A stretch of 37,243 bases of DNA from Ignavibacteria bacterium (GTDB lineage Bacteria > Bacteroidota > Ignavibacteria > UBA10030). Below the pieces are notes generated by a model that was given only the letters and a program-made list of their open reading frames with translations, was not told the origin of the DNA and searched no databases. Within the stretch, counting starts at the first letter, position 1. Each line of letters begins with the position of its first letter. A program made the position numbers and the translations under genes. Positions 22,035 through 29,663 of this stretch are shown here, piece after piece. Where the stretch lies: positions 1 through 37,243 of the forward strand of contig VGVZ01000029.1 of the NCBI GenBank assembly GCA_016873805.1. The letters are read 5' to 3'.

Positions 22035-22529
22035 ATGGAACAGACATTCAAATATAAACTTGATTTCTACTACCAGCAGACTCTGATCTATCTGGCCACG
22101 CTGGTTGTCTATGTCGGCATCAAAGGAAGTTTCATTGAGGAGCAGTTCACCTTCTTCTACAAAGACCCGTTGGTGATCATCATCGCGCTCTTCTTTGTCG
22201 TTTCACTTGTCGTCCTCCTTCTGAACCGACTGAGGAATCGCAAGCTGGTCATCAATGATTCGGCAATCATATTCATGAGCCGTCGCCGGCAGCATGAAAT
22301 CCGGATCGATTCGATCGAATGGATGTATGTTGGCCGGGAACGGCTTGTTCAAACGGCGGGACGTTTTCAGCTCGTCGTCATCAAAGTCAAAGGGCGTCGT
22401 CGTCTCTTTCGGATTCGCGTGGGGCGGTATGAACGCGATCGGGAGCTGAGCGCCGCAATCGAGCGGATCGGCGAACTGGTCCCGAAAGTGAGACGGCGTC
22501 GATTCGGCATGCAGCGTCGAAGACCATAG
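22035..22529 (+). CDS. Unrecognised two-helix membrane protein with PH-like tail, in the dcw cluster
   Basis: A 164-residue protein between murG and murC, a place usually without a gene. Two hydrophobic helices (about 14-31 and 45-64) form a hairpin. They are followed by about 80 residues of alternating beta strands (LVINDSAIIFMSRRRQHEIR, SIEWMYVGRERL, FQLVVIKVKGRRRLFRIRVG) and a last helix (YERDRELSAAIERIGELV). That topology resembles bacterial PH-like (bPH) membrane proteins. The C-terminus is very basic. The gene begins 3 bp after the murG stop and ends 26 bp before murC, so it is surely co-transcribed with division genes. No known division protein matches it by eye. The role is unknown; a scaffold or regulator at the septal membrane is a guess. 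Confidence 0.75.
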   Translation: MEQTFKYKLDFYYQQTLIYLATLVVYVGIKGSFIEEQFTFFYKDPLVIIIALFFVVSLVVLLLNRLRNRKLVINDSAIIFMSRRRQHEIRIDSIEWMYVGRERLVQTAGRFQLVVIKVKGRRRLFRIRVGRYERDRELSAAIERIGELVPKVRRRRFGMQRRRP

Positions 22530-25640: not shown

Positions 25641-26891
25641 ATGAAAAACGAAATTGCAGTCGGATTGGATATAGGAACCACCAAAGTGTGCGCGATTGTT
25701 GCCGCGCCGGACGAGACTCGTCCCGGAAAACTAAGCATTCTGGGGATCGGACGAAGTCCTTCGGATGGTCTAACGCGCGGCGTCGTGACAAACATCGACA
25801 AGACCGTGAGATCTATTCAAACAGCGATTAAGGAGGCGGAATCGCAGTCCGGCGTGAAGATCTCTACCGTCACCGTCGGGATTGCCGGAGATCATATTCA
25901 GAGCTTTCAGAGCAGAGGCGTGGTCTCTATCAGCAGGCCCGACAACGAGATTACACAGGAAGATGTTGAACGGTTGATTGCCGATACGAGGCGTGTCGCA
26001 CTTCCCTCCGACCGGAAGATTATTCATGTCATTCCGCAGCAGTTCATCGTCGACGGCCAGGATGGGATTTACGATCCGGTCGGCATGTCCGGCGTTCGGA
26101 TGGAAGCGGTCGTCCATATCATCACCGGTCTCATCACGGCGGCGCAAAACATCTACCGCTGTGTCCAACGAGCCGGACTCCAGGTCAACGACATGGTACT
26201 GGAGCCGCTGGCCTCGAGCTACGCGGTGTTGGATGACGAGGAGAAGGAAGTCGGTGTTGCTCTGCTCGACATCGGCGGCGGAACCACGGATCTCGCCGTC
26301 TTCGAAGAGAAGACGATCAGACACACGGCGGTGATCGGCATTGCAGGAAAGAAGGTCACGGACGACATCCGGAAGGGATTTGGAATCCTGACGGAGCAAG
26401 CAGAAAAACTGAAGCAGGATCACGGCTTTGCGTTCAAGCCGGCGCTGGTGAACAATGATCCCATCGTGCTTCCCGGCATCGGGGGCCGGCCACCCATCGA
26501 GATTGACAAGCAGCTGCTGTGTGAAGTAATCCAGCCGCGCATGGAAGAAATTCTGGAAATCGCGGCAATGGAAATCAAGCGATCGGGATACTCCCGGCAC
26601 TTGTCGGCCGGCGTGGTCCTCACCGGCGGCGGATCATTGATCAAGGGGACATCGGAACTCGCGAAGGAGGTGATGGGAATGCCGGTGAAGATCGGTATCC
26701 CTTCGGGATTCGCATCGGGACTCGTTCGCGAAATCGAAAATCCTATCTACGCGACGGGGGTTGGACTGGTTCTCCATGAATTGAAACATCGCGATCGTTC
26801 AAACATCACTGCGGTGATGAAAAACGGAAAAGGAAAAGGATCGTTCAAGAATGTGTTCGAACGGATGAAGAGATGGTTTGATGAGCTGTGA
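25641..26891 (+). CDS. ftsA: Cell division protein FtsA
   Basis: A 416-residue actin-like ATPase. The ATG at 25641 gives the standard N-terminus (MKNEIAVGLDIGTTKVCAIV, phosphate-1 loop), while the longer frame overlapping ftsQ does not. The 1C subdomain characteristic of FtsA follows, with IPQQFIVDGQDGIYDPVGMSG. The phosphate-2 loop is ALLDIGGGTTDLAVF. The adenosine motif is VVLTGGGSLIKG. The last 15 residues (FKNVFERMKRWFDEL) form the amphipathic membrane-targeting helix. FtsA anchors FtsZ filaments to the membrane. It has a 34-bp gap after ftsQ. The last base of its stop codon is the first base of a heptad repeat array that leads into an inserted gene. Confidence 0.96.
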   Translation: MKNEIAVGLDIGTTKVCAIVAAPDETRPGKLSILGIGRSPSDGLTRGVVTNIDKTVRSIQTAIKEAESQSGVKISTVTVGIAGDHIQSFQSRGVVSISRPDNEITQEDVERLIADTRRVALPSDRKIIHVIPQQFIVDGQDGIYDPVGMSGVRMEAVVHIITGLITAAQNIYRCVQRAGLQVNDMVLEPLASSYAVLDDEEKEVGVALLDIGGGTTDLAVFEEKTIRHTAVIGIAGKKVTDDIRKGFGILTEQAEKLKQDHGFAFKPALVNNDPIVLPGIGGRPPIEIDKQLLCEVIQPRMEEILEIAAMEIKRSGYSRHLSAGVVLTGGGSLIKGTSELAKEVMGMPVKIGIPSGFASGLVREIENPIYATGVGLVLHELKHRDRSNITAVMKNGKGKGSFKNVFERMKRWFDEL

Positions 26892-26939
26892 GTGAAGAGT
26901 AGAAAGTGGAAAGTAGAGAGTAGAGAGTGGGAAGTGAAT
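26891..26939 (+). repeat. Left 7-bp-period array (AGTnnnn) after ftsA
   Basis: Seven contiguous heptads in exact 7-base register: AGTGAAG, AGTAGAA, AGTGGAA, AGTAGAG, AGTAGAG, AGTGGGA, AGTGAAT. AGT is invariant at the start of each. The array begins on the last base of the ftsA TGA stop. Purine-rich on the + strand. Confidence 0.8.
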
Positions 26940-26994
26940 ATGGGGAGATTGTAGGCGAGGATAAGACAACAGATGAATAAAGGGGGGAAACGAA

Positions 26995-27360
26995 GTGCAT
27001 GATTTTCGTCAACTTGATGTCTATGCCCGAGCGCTGCGGTTTACGCGCAAGGTTCGCTTGACGACGGCGCTGTTTCCGAGGGATGAATTGTTCTCCTTGA
27101 CATCGCAATTTCGAAGGGCTTCGGATTCAGTAGTGCTGAACATCGCCGAAGGAGCAGGTAACAAATCTAAACGCGAATTTGCAAGGTTCCTCGGCTACGC
27201 AATTCGTTCAGGATTTGAATGTGGCGGTTGTGCGGATATTGCCAAAACACAGGATTACATAGATGAAGCTGAGTACGAGACATTGGTGGCGGAGGGACAA
27301 GAAATCATTGCCATGCTGGTTGGTCTCCAGCGAGCCGTCCTTCGCGGGATCGAACCGTAG
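26995..27360 (+). CDS. Four-helix-bundle protein (S23 / 23S rRNA intervening-sequence protein family) between ftsA and ftsZ
   Basis: A 121-residue, all-helical protein of the S23-type family, whose members are encoded in 23S rRNA intervening sequences of spirochaetes and as free-standing genes; the retroelement protein Avd is a relative. Family blocks are MHDFRQLDVYARAL at the N-terminus, LTSQFRRASDSVVLNIAEGAG in helix 2 and SKREFARFLGYAIRSGFECG in helix 3. Cys76 and Cys79 (ECGGC) replace the usual LEYQL-like residues. A GTG start is preceded by GGGGGG about seven bases upstream; an ATG at 26999 is out of frame. It sits alone in the normally tight ftsA-ftsZ junction, between two heptad arrays, and is not a known division protein. 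Basic faces suggest nucleic-acid binding, but the role is unknown. Confidence 0.9.
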   Translation: MHDFRQLDVYARALRFTRKVRLTTALFPRDELFSLTSQFRRASDSVVLNIAEGAGNKSKREFARFLGYAIRSGFECGGCADIAKTQDYIDEAEYETLVAEGQEIIAMLVGLQRAVLRGIEP

Positions 27361-27395
27361 ATGCGCGCGTGGATTCCTCGCGCGGTCTGCTCAGC

Positions 27396-27491
27396 ACTCA
27401 TACATCATACTCAATACTTAGTACTTAATACTTAATACTTGATACTAAATACTTAATACTTATACTCCATACTTGATACTCAATACTTGTC
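27396..27491 (+). repeat. Right 7-bp-period array (ACTTAAT-like) before ftsZ
   Basis: Fourteen units run in heptad register, beginning ACTCAT, ACATCAT, ACTCAAT, ACTTAGT, ACTTAAT, ACTTAAT, ACTTGAT, ACTAAAT, ACTTAAT and ending ACTTGTC; two units (27396-27401, 27458-27463) are six bases. Read on the minus strand, most units begin AGT when rotated, the same leading trinucleotide as the left array. AT-rich, unlike its surroundings. Confidence 0.8.
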
Positions 27492-27544
27492 TCATGCGAA
27501 TGTGAAGTACTAACAAACTAAACAATCCAAAGGGAGGATCCATC

Positions 27545-28714
27545 GTGATAGAACTCGATACTTCTTCTGCTCGCGGAGCCAAAATCCGAGTAGTCGGTGT
27601 TGGCGGCGGAGGCGGAAACGCCGTCAACAGCATGATCGACAAAGGGCTCATTGGAGTAGACTTTGTTTCGATCAATTGCGACTTGCAAGCGCTCGAACGG
27701 AACAAAGCGTCACACAAAATTCAAATAGGCAAAAACCTCACGCGTGGCCTCGGCGCCGGCGCAGATCCGGGTATCGGCTATCGGGCCGTCGAGGAGGACC
27801 GAGAGGAGATTGCCCGAGCCCTCACCGGCAGCGATATGGTCTTCGTGACCGCCGGCATGGGGGGCGGAACGGGCACCGGCGGCGGACCCCTCGTGTCAAA
27901 TATTGCCAAGAGCGTCGGCGCTCTGGTGGTCGGCATCATTACCAAGCCCTTCGCCAGTGAAGGGAAGAAACGGCGTGAACAGGCCGATCTGGGTATCGAG
28001 GAGATGAAGAAACAGGTCGATACGCTGATCATCATTCCGAATCAGAAACTGCTTGATATCATCGATCGGCGCACCCCGCTCCTCGATGCGTTCGAGCTTG
28101 CGAATCAGGTTCTCTACAACGCCACGCGCGGCATCTCGGAAGTGATTACTGTCCCGGGCCTCATCAACGTCGATTTCGCCGATGTTCGGACCATCATGCG
28201 TGAGATGGGTGATGCCTTGATGGGAACGGGTGTGGCAACCGGGGAGAATCGCGCCATCGAAGCAGCGAACGCGGCCATCTCAAGCCCGCTCCTCGAAGGG
28301 ATCTCGATCGCCGGTGCCCAGGGCATTCTGGTCAACATCACCGGCGGCAAAGACATGACGCTTGTCGAGGTGGACGAGGCGACCGGCATTATCCACGAAG
28401 CCGCCGGCGACGATGCGAACGTCATTCTCGGAACGGTGATTGACGACGAGATGACCGAAGAAATTACGGTCACGGTCATTGCCACGGGATTCAACAAGAA
28501 AGCCGCTGCCGTGAAACCTTCCCGCCCGGTGACGACACTTGTTGAGCGCATTCCATCCGGACCGGCGGAGCTTCAGAAATTCGATGAACCGACGTTTCGA
28601 CGACGGGGTGTCGAGCTCCCGTTCAGCGCATTCCGTGATGGAGCAGAAGAAAAAGAGAAAATCGACAAAACAGATCCCGATAAACCGGCATTTCTCCGCA
28701 AGATCATGGACTAA
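27545..28714 (+). CDS. ftsZ: Cell division tubulin FtsZ
   Basis: A 389-residue FtsZ, the Z-ring GTPase. The G-box is GMGGGTGTGGGP (GGGTGTG 106-112). The T7 synergy loop is NVDFAD (208-213), which completes the GTPase site of the neighbouring subunit. The first strand is RVVGVGGGGGNAVNSM. After a short linker the C-terminal conserved peptide DKPAFLRKIMD (last 11 residues) matches the D-x-PAFLR motif that binds FtsA. The GTG start at 27545 has GGGAGGA (27532-27538) at six bases, the strongest ribosome site in the cluster, fitting the high FtsZ level needed. That independent site also suggests ftsZ escapes coupling after the inserted gene. Confidence 0.97.
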   Translation: MIELDTSSARGAKIRVVGVGGGGGNAVNSMIDKGLIGVDFVSINCDLQALERNKASHKIQIGKNLTRGLGAGADPGIGYRAVEEDREEIARALTGSDMVFVTAGMGGGTGTGGGPLVSNIAKSVGALVVGIITKPFASEGKKRREQADLGIEEMKKQVDTLIIIPNQKLLDIIDRRTPLLDAFELANQVLYNATRGISEVITVPGLINVDFADVRTIMREMGDALMGTGVATGENRAIEAANAAISSPLLEGISIAGAQGILVNITGGKDMTLVEVDEATGIIHEAAGDDANVILGTVIDDEMTEEITVTVIATGFNKKAAAVKPSRPVTTLVERIPSGPAELQKFDEPTFRRRGVELPFSAFRDGAEEKEKIDKTDPDKPAFLRKIMD

Positions 28715-29656: not shown

Positions 29657-29663
29657 GCATCTT

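Follow-up and report, generated by a model that had tools for sequence, protein, structure and literature searches.

The ftsA–ftsZ junction of the window

The window, a whole contig (C29; 37,243 nucleotides) of a 3.2-Mb genome that is 99% complete (G000, hereafter the own genome), carries ftsA at 25641–26891 (TIGR01174, E 1.7e-125) and ftsZ at 27545–28714 (TIGR00065, E 2e-124), both on the plus strand. Between them lies a unit with a single gene on the same strand (26995–27360), which encodes 121 aa from a GTG start, with a probable ribosome-binding site, GGGGGG, at 26982–26987, 7 nt before the GTG. The product matched PF05635 (E 1.2e-28, 99.8 bits against a cut-off of 33.8) and TIGR02436 (E 1.6e-27, 95.8 bits against a cut-off of 24), and its predicted model is a four-helix bundle (pLDDT 96). 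With both matches above the curated cut-offs and this fold, the protein is a member of the S23 / 23S_rRNA_IVP family, and the gene is intact, as the initial annotation of this DNA had it.

The 7-bp array that had been described on each side of the gene was also recovered. The left array (26891–26939, plus strand; TRF rows 26896–26936; self-identity 0.77) consists of seven AGTANNN-type units, in order AGTGAAG, AGTAGAA, AGTGGAA, AGTAGAG, AGTAGAG, AGTGGGA and AGTGAAT, and it opens on the final base of the ftsA stop codon, in agreement with the annotation. The right array (27396–27489; TRF score 101–102; self-identity 0.86) has about 13 units with AGTANNN on the minus strand, where exact AGTANNN runs of four units occur. 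The right array is thus an inverted copy of the left, a relation that the annotation did not contain. About 55 bp separate its end from the ftsZ start (53 had been given), and here the ftsZ leader is left in place at 27490–27544 with a good ribosome site, GGGAGG, at 27532–27537. Comparable leaders of 42–111 nt occur at most empty ftsA–ftsZ junctions of relatives.

No transposase is encoded in the unit. The window has no Rfam match, and the S23 gene lies outside any 23S rRNA gene. The host genes are abutted by the heptad arrays, which would hide short target-site duplications. Directly past the S23 stop codon there is a GC-rich inverted repeat, GCGCGCGTGG...CCTCGCGCGG (27362–27387), without a T run. 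Elsewhere in the division and cell-wall cluster, a 164-aa membrane-like ORF with a sub-threshold Pfam match to DUF6585 lies between murG and murC (22035–22529).

Structural relatives of the S23 protein

To our knowledge, S23 proteins have no known function. The structures nearest to the model were 2gsc (TM 0.93) and 2rld, with five chains each, followed by Avd of diversity-generating retroelements (DGRs), which shares the fold (TM 0.81–0.84 to 4dwl and 8ub7) at a low identity of 12–14%. As 8ub7 is Avd in a DGR ribonucleoprotein, this kinship makes nucleic-acid binding by S23 plausible. Unlike the Avd systems, the own genome has no reverse transcriptase (no RVT_1 match in G000), and mobility driven by such an enzyme was therefore rejected. 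S23 is under purifying selection, with dN/dS of 0.03–0.14 where computable.

Heptad arrays accompany S23 genes

Association with 7-bp arrays was scored at about 107 loci (one from a related family) drawn from the S23 genes of 32 genomes belonging to the window's family. An array was called when a 35-bp stretch within 250 bp of the S23 gene had a 7-period self-identity of at least 0.6. Arrays were found upstream of 53% and downstream of 44% of these S23 genes, compared with 0 of 201 control stretches taken 750–1000 bp away. Since these far controls are largely coding, a second control set was taken from ordinary intergenic gaps in the own genome, of which 5 of 334 reached the threshold. Both window arrays lie above this seldom-met value; given these controls, they are not a product of chance. 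Besides 7, the raised periods were 14 and 8 (the latter at 19% upstream and 12% downstream), with no other clearly raised. Nearly half of the S23 flanks fell below the array threshold, which counts against reading the unit as a mobile cassette.

The association extended to a second sample of about 80 S23 loci from Bacteroidota, Acidobacteria, Patescibacteria, Deltaproteobacteria, Verrucomicrobia, Chloroflexi and other phyla: 57% had an array upstream and 56% had one downstream, whereas far controls reached the threshold in 6% of cases. In all of these counts the loci are for the most part best-scoring matches and do not form a random sample, orthologous sites are not independent, and many of the genomes are draft MAGs, whose repeats are easily misassembled. 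S23 lay in sense between co-directional genes at 117 of the 134 loci with both neighbours scorable (48/54, 46/53 and 23/27). Among 95 loci, the distance from the upstream stop codon to the left array was at most 10 nt in 54 and at most 25 nt in 82. A tie between heptad number and the pentamer was considered and dropped, the detection window itself being six heptads long.

Each S23 locus has a heptad of its own, and similarity of heptads followed similarity of the proteins among close relatives. For S23 pairs of at least 60% identity outside orthologous sites, arm similarity was 11.97, compared with about 9.4 for pairs below 50% and 9.55 for a wrong-strand control. This between-site similarity faded below about 50–55% S23 identity, which again counts against the cassette reading.

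The own genome contains five further S23 genes, each with a different heptad. The initial annotation had suggested scoring the flanks of other S23 genes for 7-bp periodicity: the array anatomy is clear in L001, L004 and L005, weak in L006 and hardly present in L003. The L005 unit (L005:1348–1955, G000:C27) is located between tRNA-His and tRNA-Glu and has ATTGANN arms; downstream of it a 142-bp unit occurs three times at 98% identity (L005:1938–2369). Orphan arrays also exist. Sampled stretches of the own genome, about 837 kb in total, yielded five clear cases, and by assignment of type by eye all five were of types belonging to resident S23 units (three AAAATG-like, one GTGAGAA and one AGTA), so the arrays sampled away from S23 genes were not unlinked to them. 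Pattern counts in 16 genomes indicated that heptad types are genome-specific; for example, the CAGA run was absent in G000 and G009, and the GTGA run in G009. Y1_Tnp genes are present elsewhere in the own genome, outside the unit.

The arms are inverted copies

Left arms were compared with reverse-complemented right arms by local alignment at 104 loci. Own pairs scored 16.8, against 10.3 in direct orientation and 10.4 with the arms of other loci (Wilcoxon p = 2e-14), and in the multi-phylum loci the inverted match was again above the direct match (p = 4e-6). Relative to S23, left arms are purine-rich and right arms pyrimidine-rich.

Inverted arms could act in RNA. In that case pairing of the arms in the ftsA–ftsZ transcript would place S23 in a loop, and the insert would be excised by RNase III, so that the operon would tolerate it. 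The intervening sequence (IVS) in the 23S rRNA of Coxiella burnetii sets a precedent: its S23 ORF lies in sense, RNase III cuts its stem, and the ORF is preceded by tandem GACAGAT heptamers in numbers that differ from strain to strain (PMC4990558). The sense placement of S23 inside operons, and once between tRNA genes, fits this explanation. So does the predicted pairing energy, which was better for own arms than with other loci (−38.5 versus −26.9 and −41.6 versus −22.2 kcal/mol), with the arms paired in 5-bp steps with 2-nt loops in the predicted cassette fold. However, the fold of the whole cassette was no better than that of shuffled sequences (z −0.31), and sense G-U-compatible changes were not in excess among the arm mismatches (230 versus 233, ratio 0.99 (0.82–1.20)) or among those of the heptad core (31 versus 24). 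The existence of a flipped cassette, described below, also argues against excision from the transcript, and we consider this explanation quite unlikely for the window.

Maintenance of the arms by sense-RNA pairing found no support, as no wobble bias was seen across loci. Together with the unexceptional fold, this speaks for selection on recognition of the heptads rather than on an RNA stem, as far as sequence comparison can tell. Recognition would more likely be of DNA, because the arms are inverted copies without a G-U bias, while RNA processing may nevertheless apply to certain copies, the rRNA IVSs for instance.

Gain, loss and replacement at ftsA–ftsZ

The ftsA–ftsZ junction was readable in 29 genomes, including the window's. 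S23 was present in 13 of these, with heptads, and absent from 16, so that relatives do offer the empty sites that the initial annotation suggested looking for, and S23 is neither universal here nor devoid of arrays. Two of the 16 S23-less junctions have heptads, CAGA in both orientations (L026:1808–2010 in G020, and L031 in G040).

The large tree includes twelve ftsA–ftsZ S23 proteins, all of which belong to one clade (92/92). Within it, clade A goes with CAGA heptads (in L030 a degenerate TCAG form), while clade B, which includes the window, goes with AGTA heptads; a smaller S23 tree kept clade B and left the rest unresolved. The two clades meet in genus g9, in which G021 and G029 hold clade A, G025 and G027 hold clade B, and G008, the sister of G025, is empty. 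Forcing the g9 S23 proteins together was rejected (AU p = 0.0007, a value that serves as a guide, because the test was selected after the grouping had been noticed and the S23 protein is short). In contrast, 600 + 600 bp of ftsA and ftsZ DNA unite g9 at 100/99. Because the proteins are split between the clades while the flanking DNA unites the genus, S23 and its heptads were exchanged together at this site. No donor recombination tract was seen in identity along the ftsA and ftsZ flanks of the swapped cassettes.

This joint exchange also bears on passive slippage, by which arrays would arise anywhere and an S23 neighbour would be a coincidence. Polymerase slippage has been offered for bacterial heptameric repeats (PMC4692102), and arrays without S23 exist. 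Slippage is hard to reconcile with heptad types exchanged along with the S23 clade, with inverted copies that bracket a coding sequence, or with periods of 7 and 14 that stand out above a smaller rise at 8, and we give it almost no credence.

Movement between sites

One clade of S23 proteins (L060, L062, L089 and L095; 72–78% identity in the listed pairs), with TTAATTGG/TGGTGA heptads, occupies HIT-SLBB, metK-ahcY and DUF4159-DUF4175, three junctions that are unrelated to one another. The last of these has several states. S23 is in sense in G027 and G029 and flipped in G008; heptad arms are present but S23 is missing in G031 and G015; different heptad types occur in other genomes; and in six genomes, including the window's own (29657–29663, plus strand), the two host genes abut. 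In the flipped copy (protein L062; junction L277, G008:C19), S23 is antisense to the host genes while the arms keep their usual polarity; the segment between the arms may have inverted, or the cassette may have inserted independently. In G015, the S23-less DUF4159-DUF4175 copy (L279) and an S23-bearing metK-ahcY copy (L293) share a GC-rich palindromic block in the left arm. The shared block suggests copying within one genome.

Near-identical copies at different sites were not found, the most similar pairs being at orthologous sites, and the scan of viral contigs gave no close relatives. Most S23 sites are orthologous across genera, for example L004 with L116, L121, L122, L120 and L115; movement is therefore rare, and vertical inheritance dominant. 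Both the lack of near-identical copies elsewhere and the prevalence of orthologous sites weigh against the cassette reading, as does the absence of an encoded transposase. Two loci in different genera, L061 (G016) and L104 (G023), have identical S23 proteins in surroundings that are 98% identical, reflecting either a recent transfer or a cross-contaminated MAG (G016 is 69% complete).

Retention at orthologous sites such as those of the L004 group might instead mark a domesticated regulator, in which S23 would bind the heptads of its own operon, TRAP-like with one subunit per heptad, and tune itself and the downstream gene, here ftsZ. The strong purifying selection, the arrays right beside the upstream stop codon and the action of the fold relative Avd inside an RNA-protein complex are all consistent with this. 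Binding of one RNA strand, however, does not need a mirrored right arm, the host operons are unrelated, S23 is missing from more than half of the ftsA–ftsZ junctions, and S23-less arms persist (L026, L031, L276 and L279). On balance, we regard regulation as an unlikely account of the window unit. The initial annotation had left a choice between a recruited regulator of FtsZ expression and a mobile or selfish cassette. The former found no specific support, while the latter is well supported by the empty sites, same-site replacement, one clade at several sites, the flipped copy, the S23-less derivatives and the cross-phylum link.

Comparison with known elements

The 23S rRNA IVSs with an S23p ORF (Coxiella burnetii; also Leptospira and Brucella) resemble the window cassette in having S23 in sense to the host transcript, ends that are complementary in sequence and, in Coxiella, tandem heptamers. 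Here, by contrast, the host is a protein operon and longer heptad arrays form the arms, one on either side; furthermore, the Coxiella ORF has been described as decaying, whereas S23 here is under purifying selection. Insertion sequences and other DNA transposons differ from the cassette in that the latter encodes no transposase.

RAYT-REP(IN) systems comprise a mostly vertically inherited gene with inverted cognate repeats flanking it and further repeat copies elsewhere in the genome; RAYT is a Y1 (HUH) transposase. The S23 cassette is likewise mostly vertical, with inverted cognate repeats and dispersed ones (the five orphan arrays of resident types). Unlike RAYT, S23 is a four-helix bundle without a recognised nuclease domain, its repeats are tandem heptads, and no Y1 gene lies between the arms.

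Heptameric repeats are over-represented in bacteria without an agreed cause, slippage having been proposed (PMC4692102), with cases described in Geobacter (PMC2700814) and Beggiatoaceae (PMC4679880). The dispersed repeats of Xanthomonas, Nostoc, Geobacter and Beggiatoaceae are, like the S23 arrays, 7-bp, mostly intergenic and in some cases inverted pairs, and a text search of these three papers (PMC4692102, PMC2700814, PMC4679880) found no mention of S23. Heptamers in one 23S rRNA insert, that of Coxiella, are already published. We found no report of a general S23–heptad link in the open-licence literature; subscription papers and bioRxiv, where it may be published, lie largely outside that literature.

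Proposed mechanism

We think it probable that the window feature is a copy of a widespread mobile cassette, composed of S23 and cognate inverted heptad arrays and free of a transposase. The comparative support comprises the S23–heptad link, the inverted arms and the match of heptad type to S23 clade among close relatives, as well as gain, loss and replacement at ftsA–ftsZ, one clade at several junctions, a flipped copy and S23-less armed derivatives.

The proposed steps are as follows. The cassette would enter an operon junction in sense orientation, in this case just past the ftsA stop. S23, a homopentamer by analogy with its solved relatives, would recognise the constant 4–5 bases of its own heptads, and the pentamer would hold both arms together, favouring copying or maintenance of the cassette. 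Because the cassette encodes no enzyme for movement, a host or trans-acting one would be needed. A copy that lacks a promoter would persist most readily when S23 is transcribed with the operon around it, and this would explain the preference for the sense orientation. The ftsA–ftsZ cassette would then be a long-term resident that left the ftsZ leader intact and is now mostly inherited vertically.

A broader and more tentative proposal, possible although we would not bet on it, is that S23 proteins form pentamers which bind heptad arrays sequence-specifically and define a transposase-free class of cassettes across phyla. They would be the missing partner behind the bacterial excess of heptamers, and the class would include the S23-bearing 23S rRNA IVSs as one of its branches. 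The combination of a gene, inverted heptads, a clade-matched heptad type and many phyla offers one testable answer both for the function of S23 and for the excess of 7-bp repeats. If true, rRNA IVSs and intergenic S23 genes would join in one family of elements that enter essential operons without breaking them.
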